Positions 12,967 through 56,739 of a stretch of 64,000 nucleotides of DNA are shown here, piece after piece. Source of the stretch: Acholoe squamosa (Eukaryota > Annelida > Polychaeta > Phyllodocida > Polynoidae). The stretch covers positions 2,250,001 through 2,314,000 of the forward strand of contig OX439038.1 in the NCBI GenBank assembly GCA_949317995.1, in the 5' to 3' direction. The first letter of the stretch is position 1, and the number at the start of each line of letters is the position of its first letter. Under the pieces are notes generated by a model that was given only the letters and a program-made list of their open reading frames with translations, made no database searches and was not told the origin of the DNA. The position numbers were made by a program, and so were the translations under genes.

Positions 12967-12986
12967 AGTACAGGAGAGAAAGAATC

Positions 12987-30956: not shown

Positions 30957-31429
30957 AGTAGTATAGTGTGAGACACAATGACATAGTTTGGTTAAGGGCA
31001 AGTTTTGAGGTGAATGATTGGGAGTTTGGATTTGATTCAGCTATGTATGTGTAGGGAAAATGTTGAGCTATCAGAATGTGCAATAATATTTGGGGGAATA
31101 TTAAAATGAATAGTGAATTAAGTGGTCCAAAGTCGGGTAATTTTTGGGTGTTTTGGTGAGATATCAGAATGTTAAAACCATCTGTGGGAACGCATTGACT
31201 GCATGGAATTACCTATGGTTTTGGGGTATGATACATTCTATGTGAATATATGTGCATGTATGTTTTTAAGTTGATTAGTTCAAAATCAATCGAGTAATGA
31301 ACAAATGAGTGTAGACTGTAAATGTATGGAGTTGGAAATCCAAGATGGCCGTGGCTGGAGGCAGGTGCTGGCTTGTCCTGGGGTAGGTGGCCTACATTCA
31401 CGCGTGGGGTAGCCTCGAATGCTGCTAGC

Positions 31430-31615
31430 TGATTGGATGGTTGTGCTCACGTGATCACTCATGTGTTCATCGGATAACACAAAGAGAATTGTGCCAGGAG
31501 TATTGCACCACCATTGCAGGTCCAGCGGCTACAGGGAAGGGTGGTTATTCCTGTTCTCAAAATAACCGGCACAAGCCAGTTCCTTTTCAGTTGCGTTCCC
31601 ACCTCTGAGTCAAAC
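31430..31615 (+). promoter_or_regulatory. Putative promoter of the PC4/death-domain gene (left arm)
   Basis: An inverted CCAAT box (ATTGG at 31432-31436) and a CACGTG E-box (31448-31453) lie 160-185 bases before the chosen ATG at 31616. No TATA box is obvious. Two overlapping upstream reading frames are likely untranslated leader. Confidence 0.35.
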
Positions 31616-33432
31616 ATGGCTGCTACGATGGATGACTTTCCTTTCAATATTAAGCCTGTCTATGACAGGGAGCTTACTCCGGAGGAAGTGGAGCTCTTGA
31701 GGACCGTGGATTCACAACCAATGCCTTGCATTTACCTTCAAACTGTAAGTGTACATTACATTACTCGATAAGATAAGCTGTTTGTTAAGTTGTGTTTATC
31801 TCTTAGGGATCCCAAGTTACTATTATGCTGAAATTCAAGGAAGAATATAAGCTACAATATTTCTGTTTCCATCTAATCTTCAGACTGATGAGGAGGCAGA
31901 AATGAATGAGCCGGTTAGTTCTACCCAAGATGAACCTACACCTACTCCTGCTAAGAAGAAGAAAAAGGATATCACAACCCCTGTCAGGAAGAGAGCAAAG
32001 CTTCTGCCTGAAGTGAAAAAGAAGACAACTAAGACAGCCAAGCGGGTTATTTATCCTTGCAGATACCTAAGCTAATGAACTTTGATGATGATACTGTCAT
32101 GCCTGAGACACCACAGCCGGGAGCACTACCCAATTCACCTTTCACTTCTGATAAAGCCAGTGAGGGTGATAACAAGAAGACAAGCAGAGTCTGCTACCTA
32201 GATGATGCTGTGAAGCTACCATCTGTCTCATCCTTTCGGAAGGGTACAACCTATTTGTGCTCCAGTGAGTGGAGACAGAACTTAGGAGTGACAGATGCTG
32301 GGAAGCAGGAAAAGGAACAAAGCAAGCTGTGGTATGATCTGGGAAGGGGACTTTACATAGACCGCCCTCCCACCACTGCAGGGAGCACAGAAAAAGAGGA
32401 ACTAAGGATCGGTCTGTGGTATACAGACTCAATAAGGAAACACCAACGTGCTGGATCCAGGTACAGTGTCACTTTGGACTTTGATGCCCTCTATCTGCTA
32501 AAGACCAATGCTAAGGATATCGAAAATGCAATGAAAATCTCGGAACGGGAGTATTTTCTAGGATACTCATGCCATCTTGGAGGACAGTATTTCATTACGG
32601 TGGAGCACGACAACTGCAGTGTTTCCATCAGGTATTGGTTTGCCTTGAAGGCCAACGAGGGAGATCCAGAGGCAGAATTATTACCTGGTCGTAAAGGATT
32701 GAAGCTGACTTATGATCAATTTGGAAAGCTCAGAGTCTTCTTGGAGAAGCACCTGGATGAATATCTCCCTAACTTTAAGAATCACATCTTTAGATGTCAC
32801 AGGGAAGGTCATGATCCTGCTGAGTGTACCCTATGCTATGTCTGTGGTAGACTTCCTATGGAGAGAAATATACAGAGACTGCTTGGTGAGTATCATCCTT
32901 TCTTCATGAAATCTGTGTGCCTAATATAGTTAATGTTGACCATAGGAAAATATATGTTAAAGATTTCTAGTATGGTTAAGATATACATATTTCATTGGAG
33001 ATAGTGTGTATTGCTTATCATGCACCTGACTGAACTTGAAAAATTTGATCATGCTGAATGATAGTAGGTCTCATGTGTCATTCCAGGGCTGGAGATGGGA
33101 CTACCTTGAATGAGCCAGACACCAGTGTACTTGATGATGACTCCGAGAGGGGCTATAAAGCAGCAGAGCATAGGTATCCATGGAGGAAATTTGAAGAAAT
33201 AGACTGTTATAGAATTGCTTCACATTTTGCGCCGGCCTGGAAAAGTGTTGCCCCTTTGTTAGGTTTCACATACTGGGAAATAGAAGCCATAGCTATGGAA
33301 AATGAAGACAGTAGTTGTGTGATGCAAGCTACTGCTATGCTTATCAAGTGGTGTCAGCTTGAGGTTGATGATGCCAATCTGAATACACTGACATATGTAC
33401 TGGATCGACTTTCAATTAATACATTTCACTGA
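31616..33432 (+). pseudogene. PC4-like DNA-binding plus death-domain protein, left-arm copy (frameshifted)
   Basis: Exon 1 (31616-31744) ends at CAAACT|GTAAGT. Exon 2 (31884-32885) starts after CTTCAG and ends at CTTG|GTGAGT. A third exon ends at the stop at 33432; its acceptor is uncertain (about 33059 or 33087). AATAAA is at 33604. A Lys-rich basic stretch is followed by a PC4/p15-like domain at roughly residues 260-330: GYSCHLGGQYFITVE, then ELLPGRKGLKLTYDQFGKL, the PGRKG turn being diagnostic. Exon 3 encodes a death domain (RIASHFAPAWKSVAPLLGF, then WEIEAI, MLIKWCQ, YVLDRL). PC4 domains bind single-stranded DNA; death domains mediate signalling assemblies in apoptosis and innate immunity. 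One base is missing near 32046 relative to the other arm, shifting the frame in exon 2. Confidence 0.7.
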
Positions 33433-33776
33433 ACTGTCTATAGATGTGTAGAGTAGTTGTCAACATCGTTATTGTCATATATGTGTGTCAACCGATTTCA
33501 GTGTAAACCTTTGTGTTAAAGTGTTGAGATGAATCATTTTATATAGCATGTACCTGCTAGTGATGACATATCAATTCATAAATGACCTTGTAAACTGATT
33601 TGTAATAAAATAGATATAGCTAATATTGTCTTTGTTTCAATTTTTGTGATTATTCAATAGGAATCAGGAGAGAATACAAAACACTTGAGTTCAATGATGA
33701 ATCATTTTAATATCTACAAATATAATTGCTAAAATACTAGAATTTCTACAGTGATATCAATGTCTATTTCATCTTA

Positions 33777-35623
33777 TTATACTTCTTCATCAACTTCAGG
33801 TAAGGGTATATTTTGGATTATAAAGTTTAGAATCGACATAAGATTTTCATTGACGAAATCACCATCCATGTCAGAGAATGATAGTTCCTCCTCCTCATTA
33901 TAGCATGAGGGTGAGGGAGTTGAGTCAGAGAGTGGATTAGAGGAATCAAATGGGAAGGAGGAGGAGGGGCTGAAACCAAAGAAGGAGGATCCATCAGAGG
34001 GTGATGATCCCGACTCAGAGGAGGGGGACTTGACCCCTGATGATGGGGATGGGGTCCCAGAAGCAATTGAGTATGCTATAGTACTGTGGTCGTTGCTTGA
34101 TTCAGGTTGTGGAGCCTCAGCCTGGGAGGTGTCAGGCTGAGGAGCCCCAGCCTGGGAGGTGTCAGGCTGGGGCTCCTCAGCCTGGGAGGTGTCAGGCTGG
34201 GGCTCCTCAGCCTGGGAGGTGTCAGGCTGGGGCTCCTCAGCCTGGCAGGTGAGAGACTGAAGCTCCTCAGCCTGGGAGGTGGAGGGCTGGGGTTCCTCAG
34301 CACTGGAGGTGGAGGGCTGGGGTTCCGCAGCACTGGAGGTGGAGGGCTGGGGTTCTGCACCACTGGAGGTGGAGGGCTGGGGTTCCTCAGCCCTGGAGCT
34401 CGAGGGCTGGGGCTCCTCAATGCGGAAGGGGCATTGAAGCTCATGGCGTCTCCGACTTGATTCTGTGACCCTCTCCTTACCACAAAATCCACACTCGTAT
34501 GTATGGAAGAGATCCGGGGATGAGGGGTCATTGTCAGCAGGGGGTGGATGGTAGGGTGAAGAAGTGTTTTGAGGAGGGAGACGTGTCAGAGAAACAGAGC
34601 AGGGCCTTATCAGGGATTGAGGGGGAGGGGAGGCTTCATGAACTTTTTTTGTTTTCTTTCCTTTTCCTTTTAGGCTAAGGTTTTTTCTCTTTTTTAAGAA
34701 TTTTGTGGAGGGTTCATCCGAGATCTTAGGGGAATTTGGGCGGGTTTGGTCCATGACTCTTGTCATGGAGCGGGGGGTTAGGTCTAATAAATTATCTACA
34801 TCTACCCCCTGGGGTGGGGTGGGTTCCAAAGTACACACCACATTTGATGGGGAGTGTATAGATGGAGGTGAAGGCCGAATCAGTGGTGATTGGTAGGGGG
34901 ATCTGGTTTTGGTTGGTGTTGTTGTGGAGTAGGGGCGGTGCCTGAGGGTGCCAAAGGGTCGGGAAGGATTTGATGGGGGATAGTCGGAGTCAGAGTCAGA
35001 GTCAGTGGAGGAAGAAGAAGATGGTGATGTCGATGGGGATGATATAATGGATGAAGTACGACGATTGATCCTCATCACCAGCCTTCCCCTCATGGTGTTT
35101 CTGTAATTAAGCAAAAACCAAGAAAAATTAGAATATTCTTTTTAACAGATGTTTTGCAATAGCTAATACTTAATGTTTAAAGGTGAAAGCACTCTCTTTG
35201 TCTTTTTAATATCATGAATTAATATTCCAAAACCTATATGCTGCTTTAGGAGGTGTGATATCTTCATAGTTCATTGATCATCTTTAAGACACCCTTCAAA
35301 ATAGTTTAGAATACTACAGGTTCCAATTCTAGACCGTGCTGTATTTATATGAGGTGGCATGTGTAGAAAAAATGCTTTAAGTGATTCAACTTATAAACTG
35401 ATAGTTTCACTAACAAACTCGAAAAAGTAAAGTTGAATGAATTATATCATTTCTTACCTGTCTGTTTCCTGTGTAGGGGGTATGATTTCAGGGGACATCC
35501 CTCCATCAGATGACTGCTGGGTGTTTTTGCTGGATTCGGTTCTGTCGAAAAGCACATAAATAAAAATCATCAGTTTTGGTGGTTTTTTTTTTTTGGTTTA
35601 TTTTTTTATCATGTGATGTATCA

Positions 35624-35686
<63 letters not shown>

Positions 35687-36373
35687 AACGCACACTACAC
35701 TACCCGTTGCACTTCATTTCATGGTCTTTATGGGGGGTATAATGAATTATGCTATTCTTACCTGACGGAGAGCTGGTCATCAGAGTCGTCAGGATCGCTG
35801 TTGGTTGGACCGCTGGGTTCGATTCTGTCATAATTGCATGAATAAAAATCTATGAGGAGGGAGATCTATTTTAAAACTTTCATCATGTAAACATCAGCAA
35901 TATATATATGGAAATGCACACATCACTATCCATTTTTTATCATACCATATCACATATTGGGGCTTTTTCAAATTGAATTATGATATTCGTACCTGTCAGA
36001 GGGTTGGTCATCAAAGTTTGTGGAGTCTTCAGGGTCAGCAGGGTTGGAGGCTGCAGGATGTGCATGCTCTCGATTGCGCAACACTTTGCCGGCTTTCTCC
36101 ATGAAGTTGTCGAACATGGGTAAGTACACCTCAGTGTGCCTCCTGAAATCATCCAGCAGAGACACACCGGGGTAGACTGTTGCCTTGTTGGTGGCATATG
36201 CCTGCAAGGTACCCCTGAGCATTGATGCTCCTCCTACCAAGCGTTTAAAGACTTGGTGCATCATTTCGACTCCCTCCTCTAAGAGGGAGGCTTCCTCCTG
36301 ATGCTGAGGGAATATCTTCACACATAGGAGGGTCATCAAGCTCATCAAAGACTTGAAGTCCCTGATGGCATGG
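33777..36373 (-). CDS. Pro/Ser-rich repeat protein with Cys/His finger, left-arm copy
   Basis: Four minus-strand exons can be read: 36373-35993, 35824-35762, 35541-35458 and 35100-33777. Every junction is canonical (CAG|GTACGA, CAG|GTAAGA; acceptors ..ACAG) and in phase 2, each splitting an Arg codon. A further 5' exon must exist because the first acceptor (TTTCAACAG) needs two preceding bases; I could not find it. The first exon encodes a helical domain (HAIRDFKSLMSLMTLLCVKI and on). The last has a Ser-rich start, basic KKRKNLSLKGKGKKTKK, a finger-like CGFCGK..HELQC, about ten EEPQPSTSS/EEPQPDTSQA repeats and an acidic C-terminus (SFSDMDGDF, PEVDEEV). This suggests a nuclear regulatory protein; family not recognised. 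Uninterrupted in this arm. Confidence 0.65.
35627..35683. repeat. (AT)n microsatellite in an intron
   Basis: About 57 bases of TA dinucleotide; the mirror copy in the right arm is longer. It lies between the second and third listed exons of the Pro/Ser-rich gene. Confidence 0.95.
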
Positions 36374-36518
36374 CTGTTGAAAGAAAAAGAGAAAAGAATA
36401 AGGGTCCATGTATTTTTTCCCCTCCTACCATCATACTGGATCATAGACCTAGTAAGTAATTCAACAAGGAATCACTCATACCAACCCTGAAGGTCGTATA
36501 CTGCATTTATTACAATAA

Positions 36519-36891
36519 GGGAGTGGTCATTATTTATCAACAGGGGGGGTGGGTTTTCGCGCGGACGCATGGAATTTTTTACGCCCCCATCAACGACAGT
36601 TAAAATTTTTTGCACCCCCCCCATCAACGGCAGTAAAAAATTTTTGCGTCCCCCCATCAACGGCAGTAAAAATTTTTTGCGTCCCCCCCAAGCCGGAGGC
36701 GTGGAGTGTTTTTGCGCCCCTCCTTGATTTATAGTAGCTTGCGGGCTTTTTTGCTTAAAAGAGGGTGAATTTTTTTAGCCCCCCCTCACGAGGGGTCAAA
36801 TTATTTTTACCCCCCCTCGGGAGGGGACTGAAAATTTTACACACCCCCCCTCAAACCCACCCCCCCCCATTGATAAATAATGACCACTTCC
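36519..36891. mobile_element. Harbinger-like poly-G hairpin element, TAA duplication (left arm)
   Basis: The ends GGGAGTGGTCATTATTTATC then AACAGGGGGG and CCCCCCCATTGATAAATAAT then GACCACTTCC are inverse, flanked by TAA (36516-36518 and 36892-36894). Internal CCCCCATCAACGGCAGTAAA-type modules are tandemly repeated. It has no coding sequence and is related to the elements at 12.5, 18.5 and 38.5 kb. The same insertion is present in the right arm, so it predates the palindrome. Confidence 0.85.
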
Positions 36892-38050
36892 TAAACATGT
36901 ATTTCACGCGTAATAAATGCGGTGAAACGGCCTCCTGATGGGTTACTCACTATTACTCTATTGACATTTCATACATTTCTTGATTGACAGCTTGGAACAT
37001 TATCTCAGAAGAAATAGGAAAAGACTGCATCATAAAACCTATGTTACATTGGTGAATCATGCTGACCTTATACATAATACACCAAACCAATAGGATACAC
37101 TGAGAGTGTTACAGTACATAGATCCATGCTGTGTTTTATTCAGTCTTGATATAGGTCTAGATAGTCACACTGTTTAGAGTAGAACACATGTCTTAGACAG
37201 ATGGTATACAGATAGGTGTAAACATGAAACCTAATGTCCTCATAAAATGGCATTCCTGATCCACCACTCCCTTGGAGATTCACTCATTAAGAGGATACAT
37301 CAGCATCAGAACAGACTACTTCCTCAGGATACACACCAAGGATAAAAAGAAGAGGTAGGTTTTAATATCTTTCTCATACCACTTTTCTTATATCAAACCT
37401 GAGACAGACACAATGTCAGGGAATATGTGGAGGGACAGGGACAGTAGGAGAGGAGGAGAGGAGAGATACCCCCCCCCCCATGGTTTGGTCCCACTTTGCC
37501 TACAGTAGAGGCAGGGAGGGAGGTGACAGACTCCCAACAAGTTCCCAACCCTGTGTGCAACAGCCCCTCCCCCTTTTCTATTAATACACGACAGTAGATG
37601 CACGCTGACAATAGGGGACGTGTGGGGGACACGGCAGATGCTGCCCTAGGGATGCGGACGCGGTTAGACGGACACCAGCCAGAGGAGGGGGGGGTGTATG
37701 TATTGGAACCCACCCCATGGTGGGGGGTGGGGGTGATGCCTAGCAGAGTTCACAGGGTGAAGATGCAGGTCATGGGTTTTGCATATCTGCCAGTGGAGTA
37801 TACCCCTTTGTGTTATCTCAGGGCCATGTACAGGGTATAAGAGTATGATGCTTTGTGAAAATTTTGGTAAAATTGGAATAAATTCCTGTTATGATAGAAT
37901 TGATGTATGTTTTGGTAGTGGATGTATGTGTCAATGAATCATGTGGTATTGAGATAATTTTGCTCTGATGTGCCTTTGTATCAATTCATTGATATTATTG
38001 TTACTCTCCTAAAAGGGTGGCATGATGCACTTATGCAGCACCATAGCTCA

Positions 38051-38313
38051 TTAACCCTTTAAGGGCCGATGATGCATTAATGCATCATGCTTACTGGTCG
38101 TCATGATGCACCAATGAAGTGCTGCTGAGACTACTCACCAGCACTTCATTGGAGCATCATTGCAACCCTTTGGGAGTATATGTATCAACCCGGGAGGGTC
38201 GGCATGATGCTCCAATGAAGTGCTGGCGAGTAGTCTCGCCAGCACTTCATTGGTGCATCATGACGACCAATGGGCATGATGCACTCCTGCAACAGCGGCC
38301 TTTAAAGGGTTAA
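38051..38313. mobile_element. TTAA-flanked hairpin element, copy 1 (left arm)
   Basis: It starts TTAACCCTTTAAGGGCCGAT and ends GGCCTTTAAAGGGTTAA; TTAA target sites with CCC-type ends are the hallmark of piggyBac-like elements. Inside are two long hairpins built from CCAATGAAGTGCTGGCGAG and its inverse. It is a MITE without a transposase. Confidence 0.75.
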
Positions 38314-38453
38314 GTAAGATATTGGTTTCATTTGTCTGGTAGGTTATCCAACAAAAGATAGTAAAAACAAAGAATCACTCACTCTTCAGTGCATCATGGG
38401 AACTTTATGATGGTTAATCACTGTGGGTTATATCATGTTGATACTCTCACTCA

Positions 38454-38530
38454 GGGAATTACTCATCATTTACCATTGGGGGGGGTAAAATTTTTTACCC
38501 CCCCCCCCACCTGATAAGTGATGAACACCC
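38454..38530. mobile_element. 77-bp poly-G/poly-C hairpin element
   Basis: GGGAATTACTCATCATTTAC then poly-G and TAAAATTTTTTA then poly-C and GTGATGAACACCC form one hairpin. The flanking trinucleotides are TCA and TTA, an imperfect duplication. A second copy is at about 39526-39603 in the duplicated kilobase. Confidence 0.65.
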
Positions 38531-39018
38531 TTAATAGTACCATGATACATGAATGCAGCTGAATGAGAATCACTCAATAGTAGTGCATATGTGCATCATG
38601 CTAAGTGCAATTTCTGTTGAACCTTTCATTTTGATACTCACACAAAGGGTGGGCATGATGCACTTATGCAGCACCATAGCTCATTAAGTAAGATATTTTG
38701 GAACCCACCCCATGGTGGGGGGTGGGGGTGATGCCTAGCAGAGTTCACAGGGTGAAGATGCAGGTCATGGGTTTTGCATATCTGCCAGTGGAGTATACCC
38801 CTTTGTGTTATCTCAGGGCCATGTACAGGGTATAAGAGTATGATGCTTTGTGAAAATTTTGGTAAAATTGGAATAAATTCCTGTTATGATAGAATTGATG
38901 TATGAATCATGTGGTATTGAGATAATTTTGCTCTGATGTGCCTTTGTATCAATTCATTGATATTATTGTTACTCTCCTAAAAGGGTGGCATGATGCACTT
39001 ATGCAGCACCATAGCTCA

Positions 39019-39382
39019 TTAACCCTTTAAGGGCCGATGATGCATTAATGCATCATGCTTACTGGTCGTCATGATGCACCAATGAAGTGCTGCTGAGACT
39101 ACTCACCGGCACTTCATTGGAGCATCATTGCAACCCTTTGGGAGTATATGTATCAACCCGGGAGGGTCGGCATGATGCACCAATGAAGTGCTGGCGAGAC
39201 TACTCGCCAGCACTTCATTGGAGCATCATTGCAACCCTTTGGGAGTATATGTATCAACCCGGGAGGGTCGGCATGATGCACCAATGAAGTGCTGGCGAGT
39301 AGTCTCGCCAGCACTTCATTGGTGCATTATGACGACCAATGGGCATGATGCACTCCTGCAACAGCGGCCTTTAAAGGGTTAA
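39019..39382. mobile_element. TTAA-flanked hairpin element, copy 2 with three hairpins (left arm)
   Basis: Same ends as copy 1, with an extra hairpin-plus-spacer unit of about 100 bases, showing that the internal CCAATGAAGTGCTGGCGAG palindromes can expand in tandem. Confidence 0.75.
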
Positions 39383-39901
39383 GTAAGATATTGGTTTCAT
39401 TTGTCTGGTAGGTTATCCAACAAAAGATAGTAAAAACAAAGAATCACTCACTCTTCAGTGCATCATGGGAACTTTATGATGGTTAATCACTGTGGGTTAT
39501 ATCATGTTGATACTCTCACTCAGGGAATTACTCATCATTTACCATTTGGGGGGGGGTAAAATTTTTTACCCCCCCCCCCACCTGATAAGTGATGAACACC
39601 CTTAATAGTACCATGATACATGAATGCAGCTGAATGAGAATCACTCAATAGTAGTGCATATGTGCATCATGCTAAGTGCAATTTCTGTTGAACCTTTCAT
39701 TTTGATACTCACACAAAGGGTGGGCATGATGCACTTATGCAGCACCATAGCTCATTAAGTAAGATATTGGTTTCATTTGTCTGGTAGGTTATCCAACAAA
39801 AGATAGAAAAAACAAAGAATCACTCACTGTTCAATATCTTTATTTCTACCATAGATTAATATGATGGTACATTCATGCTCCAAATACAGTCTCTACACTA
39901 C

Positions 39902-40860
39902 TTAAAAATGATAATCTTTATAGTTACATACAGTACATGATTCACACTTTCCATATCTTGCAACGACCCCAGTTGTGACGGTAAAGTCTGACAGATTTGG
40001 TAATGTCACTCCTTCTGCATGGGCCCTAACATGGAATGAATCTATTTTATATATCTTTAGTTTTTCTGTATATTCCAAAATCCAATCATCTAAAAGACAA
40101 CCAGGGTGGGGGTACAATATTTTGGTGAAGTAAATTGTCTGAGCTTCTCCCTTCGTGTTCATGAGGTCAATAGCCACATGCATTCTGAATGGTTTGATGC
40201 CACAGAGATCATCCTTTGTGTGCCCCACAATGGAGAAGTGACTCAGGGCCAGTTCCCAATTCAGTTCAGGATTGAAAGTCATGGTCTTGTATAGATCTCT
40301 CCCATAGTTCTGCCAGTCATCCCCTGCATTGACACTACCTATGGGAATGCTCACATCCATGTCATGTTGCATCCTTGTTTGGTTTTCTCTAAGGGGCATG
40401 GAGTCTGGTATCTCCTCTGGTATTTCATCCAATCCTTGAATCATCCCCAGTGTGGTATCTTTAGTGTGAGACTCAGAAATATCAAGAAGGGTGTGGCTAC
40501 CCCTGTTATGCAGCCTGGGGTCCTTGGGGGCATTGGAGGTAACCACAGATCTGGTCCCTTCAGCATCACATGTGTCATCAGCCACCTTAAAGAAAAGAAG
40601 AGAACATGATGTGTACTTGGTCATGTCTCATTCGCATGATTCAACACTGTCAAAGTGGACTAAGAGAATAATCAGGGGTAATAAATGTGCAACTCATGTG
40701 CCTGCAGTGGTAGTCACTGGTAGAGGATGGTGAGGAGAGAATGATAAACATGTTTACTTACCACCTTGTGGGGGAGAGTGACCATGGGCTCTACCTCTTC
40801 TTGTAGTGCCTTTGTGATTGACAATTCCGACATGGTTTCTATCATGTTATCTTGAGCCAT
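39902..40860 (-). CDS. Two-exon gene for a 260-residue protein of unknown family (left-arm copy)
   Basis: Exon 1 (40860-40762, 33 codons, starting MAQDNMIETMSELSITKAL) ends at AAGGTG|GTAAGT. Exon 2 (40585-39902) follows a TTTCTTTAAG acceptor in phase 0. A polyadenylation signal (AATAAA on the minus strand) is at 39844-39839, about 60 bases beyond the stop. The protein is acidic in its N-terminal third and soluble, with FNPELNWELALSHFSIV in the middle and a CESCTVC cysteine cluster near the C-terminus. I do not recognise the family. The WELAL phrase faintly recalls the LxxxWEVAL segment of Polinton penton (minor capsid) proteins, which would suit the neighbouring capsid, but that is speculation. 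It shares a 313-bp divergent promoter with the membrane-protein gene. Confidence 0.6.
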
Positions 40861-41173
40861 GGTATGATAATAGGGTTCACACTATGCGACTGCTCTCTCT
40901 AAACTCCAGCTCTTGAGTGCGCTCTGCAGGCATCGAAATGTACCTTTTCAAAAAATCTCTTTTGTGTGCTCAGCCAATCACAGCATGATTTTCAAGACCC
41001 ATCACCCAATCAGAGAGCAGTGTACATGACATTATAGTTATGAAATGTATGAAAAGTGAGTCCTTCCCTGAGAGTGAATTTGTATGCCCTCATAGTAGAG
41101 AAACAGTAAAAACACTATAAATAATCAACTGTGCAGACTGGTATACTTAATTATGCTTTCATATTTTTTAGGA
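40861..41173. promoter_or_regulatory. Bidirectional promoter between divergent genes (left arm)
   Basis: Only 313 bases separate the two start codons. They contain two CCAAT boxes (40974-40978 and 41006-41010) and a TATAAAT at 41116-41122, 52 bases before the membrane-protein ATG. A pyrimidine run ending in TTTTTTAG directly before that ATG could also be a splice acceptor, in which case an untranslated first exon exists. Confidence 0.5.
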
Positions 41174-42735
41174 ATGATGGAGATTGCGAGACTCCTGTTG
41201 GTGTTCGCTGCAGTCTGGGTGATGTGTGCAGCCGATAGATGCCCAGATGCTCCTTACTGCAGTTGCCTGCCACGCATTATAATCTGTCGCAAGACTACGG
41301 TTCTACCAGGACGAATGTCAAAGGGGTCATCACCTCTCAGAATTAGCCCGCCACAGTCTGCAGACCTCCAGGAGTCTGTGTTGAGTGTCACCAAGTTATG
41401 GGAGTTCATAGGATTATTCCCTACCCTGACAAAGGTTGATATCAGGAACGGCCGTGTACCAATGCCCTGTGATCTCATCAATGTCCTGAAACAAATGAGA
41501 TCAAACATTCTAATCCTGTCTGACTGCCCGTCCACTGATATCAACACCGTCGTGCCTTACACAGATGTACCCTCCACAGTCCAAGCCTCCACAGACACAC
41601 ACACTTGGACTGGTGAGAACAGATAGATTTATTGTGGACAGTTTCTAAAAAATGTATCAGTGTTGCTGGTATTACAGTATATATATATATACAGTGTAGG
41701 AAATCATGATCATTGTCAGTCTTGTACTTTTATGTAAAGATTTTTATAGCAATGACCCAATTAATCATATTGAATTTGCCCTTACAGAGGTACCTGTGAC
41801 TACCAGCGCACCAGTCCTCAACACCACAGACTCTACTTACCTGAGGTATGAGGACACTACACTCCTCACGTCTGGATGGGTGCTGGCCGGGATTCTCTTT
41901 TTGGTGGTGGTGATCATCGGATCTTACACCTGCTGCCCCTGCCGGTATTTATTGCATGGCCGTGCATCTTGTAAGTGTCTTGATGCTGCCTGAAAGCTTT
42001 TGGTCCCCTCTTTCATTATCAATAGTGCATTCTCCCTTACTGTAGTTCTCCCTGCCTTGTCGCTTGGCTTGATTGTGTGTGGTATAGAATGTAGGTCTAA
42101 AAGCTGAACTGCATGATGATTATAACACTGCCTGATATCTGCTTTATGCCTGAAGCTCAAGTGTGTTATTTCTATCTGTAATGTCTCACAGCTATCTAAA
42201 TCTAATTCATTCATAACATCATTTACAGCACGTGTTACCCCAGAGGACGTTACACCAGATGCGGAGAAGGGATTACAACGGATCCGTCGGGTATTGAGAT
42301 GGCAAGCGTTGACAAGAGTTCCACGGCGTGTGGCCATCTGGATTCGAGGCAGACGATTTGGACGGAGGAGGCAGGCAAAGACACCCTGTGCCCCAAACTC
42401 ACCACAGAGTGCTACAGAGTCGGTCTACGAGATGAGGGACATGACACTCACACAGTCACCCAGCTCTGACACAGCTAAGGTGAGTATATATCATTACATG
42501 AAATAAGAAGAGACACAAAGACATTTGGTATGATACCTTTATTTCAAAGCTTAAGGTTAAATGTTTCTTACTACATGCAAGACTACTGTCTGCTCTAGAT
42601 AATAATGATTGAACCTATACTTGGGGCTTGGCCCGAGGGTCTACACACAATAAATCATTATCATTTGATTTTTTTTTTTCAAAGTTTATGGATACATGAT
42701 TCCTACTACATGCAAGACTACTGTCTCCTCTAGAT
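41174..42735 (+). CDS. Type I membrane protein with LRR-like Cys ectodomain (left-arm copy)
   Basis: Exons 41174-41612, 41788-41970 and 42229-42479 join in phases 1, 1 and 0 with canonical sites. A fourth acceptor (CTGCTCTAG, 42598) opens about 45 codons to a TAG at 42733-42735. A signal peptide (MMEIARLLLVFAAVWVMCA) precedes CPDAPYCSCLPRIIICRK, which resembles an LRR N-terminal Cys cap. FPTLTKVDIRN and ILILSDC look like one or two LRR strands and a closing cysteine. An N-glycosylation site (NTT) precedes the membrane span (GWVLAGILFLVVVIIGS, residues ~176-193), followed by CCPC and a basic cytoplasmic tail. AATAAA lies at about 42650. Probably a surface or envelope-like protein; family not firmly recognised. 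Confidence 0.65.
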
Positions 42736-42790
42736 ATCAATAATTGAACCTATACTTGGGGCTTGTCCCAAGGGTCTACACACAATGAAT
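42553..42790 (+). repeat. Duplicated candidate terminal exon (~125 bp)
   Basis: ACTACATGCAAGACTACTGT then CTnCTCTAG followed by ATAnnAATnATTGAACC occurs twice (about 42570 and 42705). Both copies keep the acceptor and a similar short open reading (IEPILGA), so the membrane-protein gene may have alternative 3' ends. Confidence 0.55.
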
Positions 42791-42886
42791 CCTTGTCATT
42801 CGAACAGATATCACCATACAATTGCGGTCAGCACATTTCAGAAATGACATCAGTAGATGGTTGTATATGATTGTCTTTTGTCTCTA

Positions 42887-46503: not shown

Positions 46504-46620
46504 GTAGTGTAGAGACTGTATTTGGAGCATGAATGTACCATCATATTAATCTATGGTAGAAATAAAGATATTGAACAGTGAGTGATTCTTTGTTTTTTCT
46601 ATCTTTTGTTGGATAACCTA

Positions 46621-48722
46621 CCAGACAAATGAAACCAATATCTTACTTAATGAGCTATGGTGCTGCATAAGTGCATCATGCCGACCCTTTGTGTGAGTAT
46701 CAAAATGAAAGGTTCAACAGAAATTGCACTTAGCATGATGCACATATGCACTACTATTGAGTGATTCTCATTCAGCTGCATTCATGTATCATGGTACTAT
46801 TAAGGGTGTTCATCACTTATCAGGTGGGGGGGGGGGGGTAAAAAATTTTACCCCCCCCAATGGTAAATGATGAGTAATTCCCTGAGTGAGAGTATCAACA
46901 TGATATAACCCACAGTGATTAACCATCATAAAGTTTCCATGATGCACTGAAGAGTGAGTGATTCTTTGTTTTTACTATCTTTTGTTGGATAACCTACCAG
47001 ACAAATGAAACCAATATCTTACTTAACCCTTTAAAGGCCGCTGTTGCAGGAGTGCATCATGCCCATTGGTCGTCATGATGCACCAATGAAGTGCTGGCGA
47101 GACTACTCGCCAGCACTTCATTGGTGCATCATGCCGACCCTCCCGGGTTGATACATATACTCCCAAAGGGTTGCAATGATGCTCCAATGAAGTGCTGGCG
47201 AGTAGTCTTGCCAGCACTTCATTGGTGCATCATGCCGACCCTCCCGGGTTGATACATATACTCCCAAAGGGTTGCAATGATGCTCCAATGAAGTGCTGGT
47301 GAGTAGTCTCAGCAGCACTTCATTGGTGCATCATGACGACCAGTAGCATGATGCATTAATGCATCATCGGCCCTTAAAGGGTTAATGAGCTATGGTGCTG
47401 CATAAGTGCATCATGCCACCCTTTTAGGAGAGTAACAATAATATCAATGAATTGATACAAAGGCACATCAGAGCAAAATTATCTCAATACCACATGATTC
47501 ATTGACACATACATCCACTACCAAAACATACATCAATTCTATCATAACAGGAATTTATTCCAATTTTACCAAAATTTTCACAAAGCATCATACTCTTATA
47601 CCCTGTACATGGCCCTGAGATAACACAAAGGGGTATACTCCACTGGCAGATATGCAAAACCCATGACCTGCATCTTCACCCTGTGAACTCTGCTAGGCAT
47701 CACCCCCACCCCCCACCATGGGGTGGGTTCCAAAATATCTTACTTAATGAGCTATGGTGCTGCATAAGTGCATCATGCCCACCCTTTGTGTGAGTATCAA
47801 AATGAAAGGTTCAACAGAAATTGCACTTAGCATGATGCACATATGCACTACTATTGAGTGATTCTCATTCAGCTGCATTCATGTATCATGGTACTATTAA
47901 GGGTGTTCATCACTTATCAGGTGGGGGGGGGGGTTAAAAAATTTTACCCCCCCCCAATGGTAAATGATGAGTAATTCCCTGAGTGAGAGTATCAACATGA
48001 TATAACCCACAGTGATTAACCATCATAAAGTTCCCATGATGCACTGAAGAGTGAGTGATTCTTTGTTTTTACTATCTTTTGTTGGATAACCTACCAGACA
48101 AATGAAACCAATATCTTACTTAACCCTTTAAAGGCCGCTGTTGCAGGAGTGCATCATGCCCATTGGTCGTCATGATGCACCAATGAAGTGCTGGCGAGAC
48201 TACTCGCCAGCACTTCATTGGAGCATCATGCCGACCCTCCCGGGTTGATACATATACTCCCAAAGGGTTGCAATGATGCTCCAATGAAGTGCTGGTGAGT
48301 AGTCTCGGCAGCACTTCATTGGTGCATCATGACGACCAGTAAGCATGATGCATTAATGCATCATCGGCCCTTAAAGGGTTAATGAGCTATGGTGCTGCAT
48401 AAGTGCATCATGCCACCCTTTTAGGAGAGTAACAATAATATCAATGAATTGATACAAAGGCACATCAGAGCAAAATTATCTCAATACCACATGATTCATT
48501 GACACATACATCCACTACCAAAACATACATCAATTCTATCATAACAGGAATTTATTCCAATTTTACCAAAATTTTCACAAAGCATCATACTCTTATACCC
48601 TGTACATGGCCCTGAGATAACACAAAGGGGTATACTCCACTGGCAGATATGCAAAACCCTCGACCTGCATCTTCACCCTGTGAACTCTGCTAGGCATCAC
48701 CCCCACCCCCCACCATGGGGTG
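46621..48722. repeat. Direct ~1-kb duplication with hairpin elements (right arm)
   Basis: Mirror of 37705-39770. TTAA-flanked hairpin elements lie at 47023-47385 (three hairpins) and 48120-48382 (two hairpins), and poly-G hairpins near 46803-46878 and 47905-47985. Confidence 0.85.
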
Positions 48723-49545
48723 GGTTCCAATACATACACCCCCCCCTCCTCTGGCTGGTGTCCGTCTAACCGCGTCCGCATCCCTAGGGCAGCATCTGCC
48801 GTGTCCCCCACACGTCCCCTATTGTCAGCGTGCATCTACTGTCGTGTATTAATAGAAAAGGGGGAGGGGCTGTTGCACACAGGGTTGGGAACTTGTTGGG
48901 AGTCTGTCACCTCCCTCCCTGCCTCTACTGTAGGCAAAGTGGGACCAAACCATGGGGGGGGGGGGGTATCTCTCCTCTCCTCCTCTCCTACTGTCCCTGT
49001 CCCTCCACATATTCCCTGACATTGTGTCTGTCTCAGGTTTGATATAAGAAAAGTGGTATGAGAAAGATATTAAAACCTACCTCTTCTTTTTATCCTTGGT
49101 GTGTATCCTGAGGAAGTAGTCTGTTCTGATGCTGATGTATCCTCTTAATGAGTGAATCTCCAAGGGAGTGGTGGATCAGGAATGCCATTTTATGAGGACA
49201 TTAGGTTTCATGTTTACACCTATCTGTATACCATCTGTCTAAGACATGTGTTCTACTCTAAACAGTGTGACTATCTAGACCTATATCAAGACTGAATAAA
49301 ACACAGCATGGATCTATGTACTGTAACACTCTCAGTGTATCCTATTGGTTTGGTGTATTATGTATAAGGTCAGCATGATTCACCAATGTAACATAGGTTT
49401 TATGATGCAGTCTTTTCCTATTTCTTCTGAGATAATGTTCCAAGCTGTCAATCAAGAAATGTATGAAATGTCAATAGAGTAATAGTGAGTAACCCATCAG
49501 GAGGCCGTTTCACCGCATTTATTACGCGTGAAATACATGTTTAGA

Positions 49546-49918
49546 AAGTGGTCATTATTTATCAATGGGGGTGGGTGGGTTTGAGGGGGGGTGTGTAAAA
49601 TTTTCAGTCCCCTCCCGAGGGGGGGGTAAAAATAATTTGACCCCTCGTGAGGGGGGGCTAAAAAAATTCACCCTCTTTTAAGCAAAAAAGCCCGCAAGCT
49701 ACTATAAATCAAGGAGGGGCGCAAAAACACTCCACGCCTCCGGCTTGGGGGGGACGCAAAAAATTTTTACTGCCGTTGATGGGGGGACGCAAAAAATTTT
49801 TACTGCCGTTGATGGGGGGGGGCGCAAAAAATTTTAACTGTCGTTGATGGGGGCGTAAAAAATTCCATGCGTCCGCGCGAAAACCCACCCCCCCCTGTTG
49901 ATAAATAATGACCACTCC
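49546..49918. mobile_element. Harbinger-like poly-G hairpin element (right arm)
   Basis: Mirror copy of the 36.5-kb element with small differences in poly-G length and one substitution in the left terminus. Confidence 0.8.
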
Positions 49919-50064
49919 CTTATTGTAATAAATGCAGTATACGACCTTCAGGGTTGGTATGAGTGATTCCTTGTTGAATTACTTACTAGTTCTATGATCC
50001 AGTATGATGGTAGGAGGGGAAAAAATACATGGACCCTTATTCTTTTCTCTTTTTCTTTCAACAG

Positions 50065-50747
50065 CCATGCCATCAGGGACTTCAAGTCTTTGATGAGCTT
50101 GATGACCCTCCTATGTGTGAAGATATTCCCTCAGCATCAGGAGGAAGCCTCCCTCTTAGAGGAGGGAGTCGAAATGATGCACCAAGTCTTTAAACGCTTG
50201 GTAGGAGGAGCATCAATGCTCAGGGGTACCTTGCAGGCATATGCCACCAACAAGGCAACAGTCTACCCCGGTGTGTCTCTGCTGGATGATTTCAGGAGGC
50301 ACACCGAGGTGTACTTACCCATGTTCGACAACTTCATGGAGAAAGCCGGCAAAGTGTTGCGCAATCGAGAGCATGCACATCCTGCAGCCTCCAACCCTGC
50401 TGACCCTGAAGACTCCACAAACTTTGATGACCAACCCTCTGACAGGTACGAATATCATAATTCAATTTGAAAAAGCCCCAATATGTGATATGGTATGATA
50501 AAAAATGGATAGTGATGTGTGCATTTCCATATATATATTGCTGATGTTTACATGATGAAAGTTTTAAAATAGATCTCCCTCCTCATAGATTTTTATTCAT
50601 GCAATTATGACAGAATCGAACCCAGCCAACCAACAGCGATCCTGACGACTCTGATGACCAGCTCTCCGTCAGGTAAGAATAGCATAATTCATTATACCCC
50701 CCATAAAGACCATGAAATGAAGTGCAATGGGTAGTGTAGTGTGCGTT

Positions 50748-50822
<75 letters not shown>

Positions 50823-52667
50823 TGATACATCACATGATAAAAAAATAAACCAAAAAAAAACCCACCAAAACTGATGATTTTTATTTATGTGCTTTTCGAC
50901 AGAACCGAATCCAGCAAAAACACCCAGCAGTCATCTGATGGAGGGATGTCCCCTGAAATCATACCCCCTACACAGGAAACAGACAGGTAAGAAATGATAT
51001 AATTCATTCAACTTTACTTTTTCGAGTTTGTTAGTGAAACTATCAGTTTATAAGTTGAATCACTTAAAGCATTTTTTCTACACATGCCACCTCATATAAA
51101 TACAGCACGGTCTAGAATTGGAACCTGTAGTATTCTAAACTATTTTGAAGGGTGTCTTAAAGATGATCAATGAACTATGAAGATATCACACCTCCTAAAG
51201 CAGCATATAGGTTTTGGAATATTAATTCATGATATTAAAAAGACAAAGAGAGTGCTTTCACCTTTAAACATTAAGTATTAGCTATTGCAAAACATCTGTT
51301 AAAAAGAATATTCAAATTTTTCTTGGTTTTTGCTTAATTACAGAAACACCATGAGGGGAAGGCTGGTGATGAGGATCAATCGTCGTACTTCATCCATTAT
51401 ATCATCCCCATCGACATCACCATCTTCTTCTTCCTCCACTGACTCTGACTCTGACTCCGACTATCCCCCATCAAATCCTTCCCGACCCTTTGGCACCCTC
51501 AGGCACCGCCCCTACTCCACAACAACACCAACCAAAACCAGATCCCCCTACCAATCACCACTGATTCGGCCTTCACCTCCATCTATACACTCCCCATCAA
51601 ATGTGGTGTGTACTTTGGAACCCACCCCACCCCAGGGGGTAGATGTAGATAATTTATTAGACCTAACCCCCCGCTCCATGACAAGAGTCATGGACCAAAC
51701 CCGCCCAAATTCCCCTAAGATCTCGGATGAACCCTCCACAAAATTCTTAAAAAAGAGAAAAAACCTTAGCCTAAAAGGAAAAGGAAAGAAAACAAAAAAA
51801 GTTCATGAAGCCTCCCCTCCCCCTCAATCCCTGATAAGGCCCTGCTCTGTTTCTCTGACACGTCTCCCTCCTCAAAACACTTCTTCACCCTACCATCCAC
51901 CCCCTGCTGACAATGACCCCTCATCCCCGGATCTCTTCCATACATACGAGTGTGGATTTTGTGGTAAGGAGAGGGTCACAGAATCAAGTCGGAGACGCCA
52001 TGAGCTTCAATGCCCCTTCCGCATTGAGGAGCCCCAGCCCTCGAGCTCCAGGGCTGAGGAACCCCAGCCCTCCACCTCCAGTGGTGCAGAACCCCAGCCC
52101 TCCACCTCCAGTGCTGCGGAACCCCAGCCCTCCACCTCCAGTGCTGAGGAACCCCAGCCCTCCACCTCCCAGGCTGAGGAGCTTCAGTCTCTCACCTGCC
52201 AGGCTGAGGAGCCCCAGCCTGACACCTCCCAGGCTGAGGAGCCCCAGCCTGACACCTCCCAGGCTGAGGAGCCTCAGCCTGACACCTCCCAGGCTGGGGC
52301 TCCTCAGCCTGACACCTCCCAGGCTGAGGCTCCACAACCTGAATCAAGCAACGACCACAGTACTATAGCATACTCAATTGCTTCTGGGACCCCATCCCCA
52401 TCATCAGGGGTCAAGTCCCCCTCCTCTGAGTCGGGATCATCACCCTCTGATGGATCCTCCTTCTTTGGTTTCAGCCCCTCCTCCTCCTTCCCATTTGATT
52501 CCTCTAATCCACTCTCTGACTCAACTCCCTCACCCTCATGCTATAATGAGGAGGAGGAACTATCATTCTCTGACATGGATGGTGATTTCGTCAATGAAAA
52601 TCTTATGTCGATTCTAAACTTTATAATCCAAAATATACCCTTACCTGAAGTTGATGAAGAAGTATAA
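50065..52667 (+). pseudogene. Pro/Ser-rich repeat protein, right-arm copy (4-bp exon deletion)
   Basis: Exons 50065-50445, 50614-50672, 50903-50986 and 51344-52667 mirror the left arm. The second is 59 rather than 63 bases: four bases are missing after AATCGAACCCAGC. Because all introns are phase 2, this breaks the frame into the downstream exons unless that exon is skipped, which would restore phase. The large last exon is otherwise open. Confidence 0.65.
50749..50819. repeat. (AT)n microsatellite (right arm)
   Basis: About 70 bases of AT, some 14 longer than the left-arm copy. Confidence 0.95.
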
Positions 52668-53011
52668 TAAGATGAAATAGACATTGATATCACTGTAGAA
52701 ATTCTAGTATTTTAGCAATTATATTTGTAGATATTAAAATGATTCATCATTGAACTCAAGTGTTTTGTATTCTCTCCTGATTCCTATTGAATAATCACAA
52801 AAATTGAAACAAAGACAATATTAGCTATATCTATTTTATTACAAATCAGTTTACAAGGTCATTTATGAATTGATATGTCATCACTAGCAGGTACATGCTA
52901 TATAAAATGATTCATCTCAACACTTCAACACAAAGGTTTACACTGAAATCGGTTGACACACATATATGACAATAACCATGTTGACAACTACTCTACACAT
53001 CTATAGACAGT

Positions 53012-54829
53012 TCAGTGAAATGTATTAATTGAAAGTCGATCCAGTACATATGTCAGTGTATTCAGATTGGCATCATCAACCTCAAGCTGACACCACTTGA
53101 TAAGCATAGCAGTAGCTTGCATCACACAACTACTGTCTTCATTTTCCATAGCTATGGCTTCTATTTCCCAGTATGTGAAACCTAACAAAGGGGCAACACT
53201 TTTCCAGGCCGGCGCAAAATGTGAAGCAATTCTATAACAGTCTATTTCTTCAAATTTCCTCCATGGATACCTATGCTCTGCTGCTTTATAGCCCCTCTCG
53301 GAGTCATCATCAAGTACACTGGTGTCTGGCTCATTCAAGGTAGTCCCATCTCCAGCCCTGGAATGACACATGAGACCTACTATCATTCAGCATGATCAAA
53401 TTTTTCAAGTTCAGTCAGGTGCATGATAAGCAATACACACTATCTCCAATGAAATATGTATATCTTAACCATACTAGAAATCTTTAACATATATTTTCCT
53501 ATGGTCAACATTAACTATATTAGGCACACAGATTTCATGAAGAAAGGATGATACTCACCAAGCAGTCTCTGTATATTTCTCTCCATAGGAAGTCTACCAC
53601 AGACATAGCATAGGGTACACTCAGCAGGATCATGACCTTCCCTGTGACATCTAAAGATGTGATTCTTAAAGTTAGGGAGATATTCATCCAGGTGCTTCTC
53701 CGAGAAGACTCTGAGCTTTCCAAATTGATCATAAGTCAGCTTCAATCCTTTACGACCAGGTAATAATTCTGCCTCTGGATCTCCCTCGTTGGCCTTCAAG
53801 GCAAACCAATACCTGATGGAAACACTGCAGTTGTCGTGCTCCACCGTAATGAAATACTGTCCTCCAAGATGGCATGAGTATCCTAGAAAATACTCCCGTT
53901 CCGAGATTTTCATTGCATTTTCGATATCCTTAGCATTGGTCTTTAGCAGATAGAGGGCATCAAAGTCCAAAGTGACACTTTACCTGGATCCAGCACGTTG
54001 GTGTTTCCTTATTGAGTCTGTATACCACAGACCGATCCTTAGTTCCTCTTTTTCTGTGCTCCCTGCAGTGGTGGGAGGGCGGTCTATGTAAAGTCCCCTT
54101 CCCAGATCATACCACAGCTTGCTTTGTTCCTTTTCCTGCTTCCCAGCATCTGTCACTCCTAAGTTCTGTCTCCACTCACTGGAGCACAAATAGGTTGTAC
54201 CCTTCCGAAAGGATGAGACAGATGGTAGCTTCACAGCATCATCTAGGTAGCAGACTCTGCTTGTCTTCTTGTTATCACCCTCACTGGCTTTATCAGAAGT
54301 GAAAGGTGAATTGGGTAGTGCTCCCGGCTGTGGTGTCTCAGGCATGACAGTATCATCATCAAAGTTCATTAGCTTAGGTATCTGCAAGGATAAATTACCC
54401 CGCTTGGCTGTCTTAGTTGTCTTCTTTTTCACTTCAGGCAGAAGCTTTGCTCTCTTCCTGACAGGGGTTGTGATATCCTTTTTCTTCTTCTTAACAGGAG
54501 TAGGTGTAGGTTCATCTTGGGTAGAACTAACCGGCTCATTCATTTCTGCCTCCTCATCAGTCTGAAGATTAGATGGAAACAGAAATATTGTAGCTTATAT
54601 TCTTCCTTGAATTTCAGCATAATAGTAACTTGGGATCCCTAAGAGATAAACACAACTTAACAAACAGCTTATCTTATCGAGTAATGTAATGTACACTTAC
54701 AGTTTGAAGGTAAATGCAAGGCATTGGTTGTGAATCCACGGTCCTCAAGAGCTCCACTTCCTCCGGAGTAAGCTCCCTGTCATAGACAGGCTTAATATTG
54801 AAAGGAAAGTCATCCATCGTAGCAGCCAT
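53012..54829 (-). pseudogene. PC4-like DNA-binding plus death-domain protein, right-arm copy (nonsense codon)
   Basis: Exons 54829-54701, 54561-53559 and a third ending at 53012 mirror the left copy. Here exon 2 is in frame through the Lys-rich region, but a TAC Tyr codon of the left arm is TAA at about 53980-53982, ahead of the PC4-like domain. The lesion therefore differs from the frameshift of the left arm. An internal Met at 53970 could restart the frame over the PC4-like domain. Confidence 0.7.
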
Positions 54830-56739
54830 GTTTGACTCAGAGGTGGGAACGCAACTGAAAAGGAACTGGCTTGTGCCGGTTATTTTGAGAACAGGAATAA
54901 CCACCCTTCCCTGTAGCCGCTGGACCTGCAATGGTGGTGCAATACTCCTGGCACAATTCTCTTTGTGTTATCCGATGAACACATGAGTGATCACGTGAGC
55001 ACAACCATCCAATCAGCTAGCAGCATTCGAGGATACCCCACGCGTGAATGTAGGCCACCTACCCCAGGACAAGCCAGCACCTGTCTCCAGCCACGGCCAT
55101 CTTGGATTTCCAACTCCATACATTTACAGTCTACACTCATTTGTTCATTACTCGATTGATTTTGAACTAATCAACTTAAAAACATACATGCACATATATT
55201 CACATAGAATGTATCATACCCCAAAACCATAGGTAATTCCATGCAGTCAATGCGTTCCCACAGATGGTTTTAACATTCTAATATCTCACCAAAACACCCA
55301 AAAATTACCCGACTTTGGACCACTAAATTCACTATTCATTTTAATATTCCCCCAAATATTATTGCACATTCTGATAGCTCAACATTTTCCCTACACATAC
55401 ATAGCTGAATCGAATCCAAACTCCCAATCCTTCACCTCAAAACTTGCCCTTAACCAAACTATGTCATTGTGTCTCACACTATACTACTGGGGTTTCTTCT
55501 GTCCAGGATGCAGAAGGGGCTCCTTCTGTACCCAGGATGCAGAAGGGGCTCCTTCTGTACCCAGAATATCCAAGGGACTCCTTCTGTACCCAGGATGCAG
55601 GAGGGGGCTCCTTCTATACCCAGGATATACAAAGGGCTCCTTCTGTACCCAGGATACAGAACAGGCTCCTTTTGTACCCAGGATCAACAAGGACTCCTTC
55701 TGTACCCAGGATACACAAGGGACTCCTTCTGTACCCAGGATGCAGAAGGGGCTCCTTCTGTACCCAGGATGCAGAAGGGACTCCTTCTGTACCCAGGATA
55801 CAGAAGGGGCTCCTTCTGTACCCAGGATGCAGAAGGGGCTCCTTCTGTACCCAGGATGCAGAAGGGACTCCTTCTGTACCCAGGATACACAAGGGGCTCC
55901 TTCTGTACCCAGGATGCAGGAGGGGGCTCCTTCTGTACCCAGGATCCACAAGGGGCTCCTTCTGTACACAGGATGCAGAAGGGGCTCCTTCTATACCCAG
56001 GATATCCAAGGGATTCCTTCTGTGCCAAGGATACACAAGCGGCTCCTTCTGTACCAAGGATCCAAAAGGGGCTCCTTCTGTACACAGGATACACAAGGGG
56101 CTCCTTCTGTACCCAGGATACAGAAGGGGCTCCTTCTCTACACAGGATACAGAAGGGGCTCCTTCTCTACACAGGATCCACAAGGGGCTCCTTCTGTACC
56201 CAGGATACAGAAGGGGCTCCTTCTGTACCCAGGATACAGAAGGGGCTCCTTCTGTACACAGAATACACAAAGGGCTCCTTCTGTACCCAGGATGCAGAAG
56301 GGACTCCTTCTGTACCCAGGATGCAGAAGGGGGCTCCTTCTGTACACAGGATCCACAAGGGGCTCCTTCTGTACCCAGGATGCAGAAGGGACTCCTTCTG
56401 TACCCAGGATACAGAAGGGGCTCCTTCTGTACCCAGGATGCAGGAGGGGGCTCCTTCTGTACACAGGATCCACAAGGGGCTGCTTCTGTACACAGGATAC
56501 AGAAGGGGCTCCTTCTGTACACAGGATAAAGAAGGGGCTCCTTCTGTACACAGGATACAGAAGGGGCTCCTTCTATACCCAGGATACAGAAGGGGCTCCT
56601 TCTGTATCCAGGATACACAAGGGGCTCCTATTGTACCCAGGATACACAAGGGGGTCCTTCTGTACCCAGGATACAGAAGGGGCTCCTTCTGTACCCAGAA
56701 TACGCAAAGGGCTCCTTCTGTACCCAGGATACAGAAGGG

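Follow-up and report, generated by a model that had tools for sequence, protein, structure and literature searches.

Same-end palindromes flanked by target-site duplications: a probable non-autonomous fold-back form of a Maverick/Polinton element in Acholoe squamosa

The SYREC DNA of adenovirus type 12 (Ad12) is a palindromic defective form of the linear, protein-primed adenovirus genome, with one end duplicated head to head. Vertebrate Mavericks have (AGT)2//(ACT)2 ends and 6-bp target-site duplications (TSDs), and Maverick particles are unobserved to date (PMC8097293). Fold-back junctions have also been described in chromosomes, with inverted microhomology of 2-8 bp in humans (PMC3907307) and of 2-14 bp at yeast junctions of origin-dependent inverted-repeat amplification (ODIRA; PMC7467729, PMC10766183). 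The present work concerns a stretch of 64,000 nucleotides of the annelid Acholoe squamosa, referred to as the window (G000:C4:2250001-2314000; contig OX439038.1 of GCA_949317995.1, a chromosome-scale assembly of 1.48 Gb in 63 contigs). It contains a 24.5-kb palindrome that is very probably a non-autonomous Maverick, formed by an extrachromosomal fold-back, integrated, and then multiplied as a palindrome, presumably with helper proteins. No report of palindromic or snap-back Mavericks was found among openly licensed PMC papers (CC0, CC BY, CC BY-SA), and the excerpts of PMC12721341 and PMC8363768 describe nothing of the kind. As far as we have searched, a proliferating family of palindromic Mavericks resembling defective interfering (DI) genomes is unreported.

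Self-comparison of the window gave one dominant inverted match, 30957-55488, and this 24.5-kb stretch pairs with its own reverse complement over its full length at 99.17% identity including indels (self-BLAST). The parts of the element are:

30957..55488, no strand: whole palindromic left-left Maverick element (self-BLAST, arm alignment and terminus matches)
30957..43195, plus strand: left arm, the left half of a Maverick, starting at the terminus AGTAGTATAGTGTGAG at 30957 (arm alignment)
43196..43210, plus strand: 15-bp loop at the fold-back axis, between GACGG and CCGTC (sequence read)
43211..55488, minus strand: right arm, an inverted copy of the left arm with the end ...ACTACT (self-BLAST and arm alignment)

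When the two arms of ~12.2 kb were aligned with MAFFT, 12,149 matching columns and 38 substitutions (24 transitions and 14 transversions) were obtained, together with 17 real gap events (18 were counted, one of which is the cut made at the axis). An earlier reading of this DNA, hereafter the original prediction, had described a 24.5-kb palindrome with ~12.2-kb arms and a 15-bp spacer, and both the self-BLAST and the arm alignment confirm this geometry. The outermost 500 bp hold 6 of the 38 substitutions (p 0.004, in a test made after the data had been seen). Conversion from the right-end terminal inverted repeat (TIR) was considered as the source of these six and is unsupported by the comparison. 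The loop sequence recurs, whole or in part, at the junctions of copies L012-L014.

Both outer ends of the palindrome are element termini (AGTAGT...ACTACT). A genome search with the outer 2.7 kb gave 43 rows from the best 40 of 1139 first-look candidates, and among the matches listed the match begins at most 10 bases from 30957 in 40 of these 43 rows, the exceptions being the window itself, C7 and C8 (54.45 Mb). Because the matches of relatives begin there, position 30957 is an element terminus rather than a breakpoint at a random place. With up to 2 mismatches allowed, a degenerate 30-mer taken from the terminus is found 92 times genome-wide (50 forward and 42 reverse; 69 without mismatch), and the reversed-pattern control gave 0 matches. 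The DNA between 39900 and 43222 has 55 matches elsewhere in the assembly, with 84-100% identity (40 of 55 candidates scored).

The original prediction had suggested looking in the assembly for a full-length element that continues past the capsid-like fragment at the axis, and that search yielded uncut relatives of ~24 kb. The non-palindromic copy on C13 extends from 19026855 to 19050927 (24,073 bp) between AGTCTG duplications. Its left end is 99% identical to the left end of the window element over 2.6 kb, and its right end matches the left terminus of the window element in inverted orientation over 484 bp at 93%, constituting a TIR. The C13 copy runs on past the equivalent of the window axis into sequence that is absent from the window; the arm corresponds to the left half of an ordinary element, cut inside a 449-codon frame that is the putative capsid gene. 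Pfam profiles were scanned against frames of this one copy. A 1798-codon open frame has a weak match to PolB (PF03175; E 1.2e-4, with 21.5 bits falling short of the cutoff, 25.8), and a 417-codon frame matches rve (PF00665, E 3.3e-8) and Chromo (E 4.2e-6), both above cutoff. An A32-like ATPase is borderline (Pox_A32, E 1.2e-4, 22.1 bits versus a cutoff of 22.8), NACHT being slightly better and also under cutoff (E 8.2e-5). No match to the adenovirus-like protease was obtained among the 9 scanned frames, which cover part of the element. On these sequence features of the ordinary copies, i.e. their termini, 6-bp TSD, TIR, weak PolB and rve, which are shared with described Mavericks/Polintons (PMC8097293; Polintoviruses, PMC4028283), the family is assigned to Maverick/Polinton; a packaging-type ATPase would be a further likeness if the borderline match is genuine. 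The window form differs from them in having two left ends, a truncated putative capsid gene, and arms without a polymerase or integrase match.

The 92 terminus matches form 33 adjacent plus/minus pairs within 80 kb, and 26 termini are unpaired. Pairs were classed as left-left by the probes 39900-43222 and outer 2.7 kb, and as right-right by a right-side probe. Under this scheme 14 pairs are left-left and three are right-right, 13 have a right-side probe match at one end only, and three belong to a second subfamily. Leaving the window aside, an exact 6-bp TSD flanks 15 of the 16 same-end pairs (12 of 13 left-left and all three right-right); the sole other pair, C3c, matches at 5 of 6 bases. For comparison, of seven ordinary copies read at both ends, six have an exact 6-bp TSD and the remaining one 5 of 6 matching bases. 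One more left-left copy, C7 (3.08 Mb), is outside the TSD count, its right terminus having been lost. Where a palindrome with identical termini lies between the two copies of a 6-bp TSD, the DNA must have been palindromic by the time it was inserted; an assembly artefact, a post-insertion inversion or two neighbouring insertions would not leave this arrangement. The palindromes of this family, with the window copy left aside, were thus formed before integration.

Two other arrangements of termini were noted. The paired termini of the second subfamily, which carry the variant TGTGTGAC, lie at C13:7424957-7446820, C17:28123229-28146826 and C12:17953366-17975604 and span 21.9-23.6 kb. Three tandem left termini with a spacing of 3,576 bp (G000:C11:7220256, 7223832 and 7227408, plus strand) stand ahead of an otherwise 24-kb copy.

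At least four left-end fold-back axes exist in the family, given here in element coordinates (e) with the C13 copy as reference. The axis of lineage A, e12452/12471, is intact in C2, C3b and C11b, and the centres are altered in C1, C3c, C4b and C6. Lineage B, with its axis at ~e11912-11928, is that of the window and has altered centres in C11, C4 (37 Mb) and C7; the axis of the window element is also found in the C4 37-Mb copy and, with less certainty, in C11 and C7. Lineage C has its axis at e11097/11110 (C5), and lineage D at e8345 in C3a and C9, whose TSDs differ. The right-right copy C16b turns between e12300 and e14100. The three simple axes have inverted microhomology of 2-5 bp and loops of 9-18 nt: GG/CC with an 18-nt loop in lineage A, the 5-bp stem GACGG/CCGTC with a 15-nt loop in lineage B, and, in lineage C, CAGG/CCTG around a 9-nt loop as read from the linear reference. 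These stem sizes agree with those of fold-back junctions in human (PMC3907307) and yeast (PMC7467729, PMC10766183) chromosomes, which are also alike in combining short inverted microhomology with a loop or spacer at the axis. The spacers of the human fold-backs are far larger than the family loops (766-70,466 bp), and the event described here differs in that it precedes integration and gives a mobile product ending in element termini.

Two lines of evidence bear on the multiplication of the palindromes. The 12 arms of lineage A, from 7 loci, differ mutually by 0-7 bases in a 612-column alignment; in the same columns each of these arms has at least 4 differences from the 8 full-length copies, and 38-42 from the C8 11.4-Mb copy. 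In 937 columns close to the axis, the window, C11, C4 and C7 are 0-10 bases apart from each other, 7-12 from the C8 11.4-Mb copy, and 88-95 from 4 full-length copies. The junction anatomy is stronger evidence than these arm distances. In the C4 37-Mb copy and in C3c the loop is joined to one complete arm, and a deletion in the opposite arm reaches as far as the loop; in C6, ~17 bp of the second arm are kept beyond the loop before the deletion begins. Such centres require a pre-existing palindrome, since a fresh fold-back cannot give them. Common axes and junction anatomy together show that the palindromes have multiplied as palindromes and are not one dead accident. Further out from the axis, the two arms of the C4 37-Mb copy are mosaic in the same way, being 3 bases apart, 10-13 from the C8 52-Mb full copy and 29-32 from the window; templating of one arm by the other, or later conversion, would explain this. 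In common with DI genomes, the left-left forms have the same terminus at both ends, have been amplified and have lost replication genes, the last feature as judged on the window arm.

A course of events can be proposed. While the linear element was being replicated outside the chromosome, a 3' end would fold back on short inverted microhomology near mid-genome, prime on its own strand and copy back to the left terminus, as the anatomy of the junctions suggests. The product would be linear and double-stranded, with the same left end on either side and the capsid gene cut at the axis. An integrase, presumably recognising the normal terminus at both ends, would then insert the palindrome with the 6-bp TSD that is seen in the sister copies. 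Palindromic genomes would be replicated and inserted repeatedly, using proteins probably supplied in trans by intact relatives, and some would lose part of one arm at the centre. The outer flank of the window copy was probably rearranged after insertion. Such a product would be like SYREC DNA in being a head-to-head duplication of one end; the difference is that the palindromes described here occupy TSD-flanked sites in a host genome and have multiplied there.

Several observations weigh against this proposal. The window copy lacks a TSD (CACATG / GGGGTT). The C14 centre is not a simple palindrome, and the founder stem of lineage B is taken from a 98% relative (C8 11.4 Mb) whose stem is imperfect. 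The junctions of C1, C4b, C11 and C7 could stem from new fold-back events, with larger loops, in the vicinity of a hotspot. The lineages were compared by pairwise differences rather than by a tree, and self-priming and supply in trans are inferred rather than observed. Finally, regular homogenisation of the arms within a copy is unsupported, given that the C3b arms are not the closest pair and those of C7 are tied.

With regard to the window copy, the missing TSD means that the flanks were probably rearranged later on at least one side, or that this copy alone has a different history. It shares terminus, axis and arms with sisters that are flanked by TSDs, which makes the same origin by far the likeliest. 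An inverted duplication that arose in the chromosome after insertion, by a break, fold-back and break-induced replication, would account for its lack of a TSD, and chromosomal fold-back inversions at short inverted microhomology have been described (PMC3907307, PMC7467729). The sister palindromes, however, are flanked by TSDs, and copies on different chromosomes have an axis in common but not their TSDs, whereas a chromosomal event would not end exactly at the terminus and restore the target. A product that is formed in the chromosome and lacks a TSD is therefore not what the sister copies represent, and we regard this origin as very unlikely, a possibility for the window copy alone. Still less probable is the artificial palindrome, made by fold-back misassembly or chimeric long reads, that the original prediction had named as its alternative. 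Fold-back artefact reads make up 0.55-0.6% of Oxford Nanopore Technologies (ONT) genomic reads (PMC12870357), and the structure was judged here from the assembled sequence. Yet there are 17 same-end paired elements, and exact 6-bp TSDs around 15 of the 16 besides the window are impossible for a fold-back artefact; moreover, the arms differ by substitutions and indels, and the same axis recurs at unlinked sites. For the family, misassembly is rejected because TSD-flanked same-end pairs are present at other chromosomal sites.

Another rival holds that the TIRs expanded inward by end-to-end recombination, one end being copied over the other, instead of by hairpin self-priming. The larger unpaired centres of several copies, e.g. 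C7 (~1.45 kb) and C4b (~1.8 kb), would fit such a process, but the three simple axes, with 9-18-nt loops and 2-5 bp of inverted microhomology, are typical of fold-back, and in lineages A and B the copies with large loops retain the lineage axis on one side, as one-sided centre deletions predict. We consider TIR expansion unlikely, though the least improbable of the alternatives. The many copies in the genome might also bring two neighbouring Mavericks head to head by chance. Anatomy refutes this: the axis contains neither terminus nor TSD and sits inside the putative capsid open reading frame (ORF), and the sister TSDs flank the whole pair, so that its probability is negligible. Fold-back before integration is hence the reading we prefer, and the original prediction, an endogenised snap-back derived from an end of a linear virus or Polinton, is supported by the Maverick termini, the sister palindromes flanked by TSDs (15 of 16 exact) and the uncut relatives.

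The lengths of the palindromic copies were compared with the 24.07-kb unit. Ten left-left pairs measure 22.8-24.9 kb and four are longer (32.8, 44.3, 55.6 and 68.9 kb). Among the long copies, C2 and C11b have one arm near 12 kb and a longer one, and in C4 both arms exceed 12 kb; the extra length of all four is assumed to consist of later inserts. The 44.3-kb pair (G000:C14:42328225-42372495, TSD CATATC) has a centre that is not a simple palindrome and is probably nested or rearranged. The founder lengths of lineages B, C and D were measured as 24.5, 23.3 and 24.7 kb, respectively, and that of lineage A, 24.9 kb, follows from its axis. In lineage D, of which part of one arm was read, the axis is only 8.3 kb in, and the arms are filled to ~12.35 kb by a tandem segment of ~1.8 kb. 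Left-left copies without an evident insert thus group closely around the unit length, the longest measuring 24.9 kb (103% of the unit). The right-right forms do not cluster in length: C16b is 20.07 kb, and C1RR is 24.05 kb including a foreign centre of ~7.4 kb, of which the 2 kb tested is a high-copy repeat, leaving at most ~16.6 kb of element. The third is 28.14 kb including ~5 kb of foreign sequence. In this last element (G000:C16:550250-578392) a central piece of the capsid region lies beside the foreign sequence. A strict unit-length rule for right-right palindromes is ruled out by C1RR, which reaches its length only by virtue of the foreign centre, and by C16b.

It is possible, though we think it doubtful, that the palindromic Mavericks are DI-like parasites of intact Mavericks with a length set by the capsid, in which case their insertions would be a record of packaging, itself unproven. 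A packaging limit is an appealing reading of the lengths, but the independent founders are few, the inserts of the four long copies are assumed and one founder length is derived from an axis, and a preference for folding near mid-genome would explain most of the distribution.

The arms carry the following genes:

42887..43195, minus strand: putative capsid ORF, truncated at the axis to its C-terminal ~103 codons (ORF list and position; no profile hit)
43211..43519, plus strand: second copy of the truncated putative capsid ORF (ORF list)
32033..32929, plus strand: PC4-like ORF of the left arm, with a frameshift near the start (weak Pfam PC4 match, E 0.0096, under cutoff)
53515..54543, minus strand: PC4-like gene, right-arm copy, interrupted by a stop (ORF list and arm comparison)
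33058..33432, plus strand: Death-domain ORF (PF00531, E 4.1e-9)
33777..35114, minus strand: Pro/Ser-rich ORF of 445 amino acids with a 30-bp repeat array (pair at 51330-52667, plus strand)
35968..36444, minus strand: ORF of 158 amino acids (pair at 49994-50470, plus strand)
39902..40624, minus strand: ORF of 240 amino acids, searched without finding a homologue (pair at 45781-46503, plus strand)
41153..41626, plus strand: ORF of 157 amino acids (pair at 44779-45252, minus strand)

The five gene pairs that had been predicted are present: ORFs of 445, 158, 240, 157 and 154 amino acids have equal lengths in both arms (ORFs of at least 150 amino acids, excluding a 151-amino-acid frame nested in the 445-amino-acid one). 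Because the 154-amino-acid frame crosses the axis, only ~103 codons (42887-43195) belong to the truncated gene. By position, this fragment matches the C-terminal end of the 449-codon stop-to-stop frame L019:4459-5808 (minus strand). The original prediction of a capsid-like fragment cut exactly at the axis stands as regards the cut, the gene being truncated at the axis, and its capsid identity is unproven. The 449-codon frame has no match in Pfam or PHROG, nothing significant in PDB and no counterpart in viral contigs, and database searches for homologues of the fragment gave no match. The predicted structure of the fragment (predicted local distance difference test, pLDDT, 41) and a second model (pLDDT 33) were too poor for a structure search. 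The capsid label, which comes from size, position and a resemblance, is plausible; in a Maverick/Polinton the protein would be a double jelly-roll major capsid protein.

The PC4-like gene is broken differently in each arm: the left copy is frameshifted, and the right copy has a premature stop. It is 59-64% identical to the metagenome proteins P0001-P0005, which perhaps derive from related elements or from hosts of such elements; the protein and its alignment gave no match in viral contigs or prokaryote contigs. Database searches with the ORF at 39902-40624 returned no homologue, and Rfam and tRNA scans of the window gave no result. Pfam detected neither a polymerase nor an integrase in 10 ORFs of the window arm. 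The window copy, as judged from these 10 ORFs, thus lacks the genes required for autonomy, and a helper would be needed. The arms had also been considered as host DNA, with a PC4-like gene with an apparent intron, a Death domain and dispersed repeats common to the left flank, a reading that was ended by the 55 genome matches, many of them in inverted pairs.

Outside the element, the flanks of the window contain:

29558..30613, minus strand: long terminal repeat (LTR)-retrotransposon-type integrase (rve) in the left flank (profile match)
55489..64000, no strand: 29-bp satellite array in the right flank, running on to ~C4:2315.8 kb

The satellite is ~10.3 kb long and begins exactly at the right terminus of the element. 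A CACATG hexamer is located ~75 bp beyond it, which proves nothing. The left flank has a second LTR-type rve integrase ORF at 12969-13994 (plus strand), and a tyrosine-recombinase-like ORF at 27456-28316 (minus strand; weak Phage_integrase match, E 0.0018, under cutoff) that possibly belongs to a DIRS-like retroelement. A 36-bp tandem repeat of 41 copies, 97% alike, occupies 25685-27161 and is open in one frame for 507 codons.

It follows from the palindromes bearing TSDs that Maverick DNA was once present in linear form outside the chromosomes and that it folded back before it was integrated. They represent a DI-like, probably helper-dependent class of Mavericks that multiplies in a eukaryotic genome. 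Any genome can be screened for their signature, a same-end pair between 6-bp TSDs. The length distribution is a testable hint of a packaging limit; if the length is indeed set by the capsid, the insertions would preserve a fossil record of packaging for elements of which no particle has been observed.

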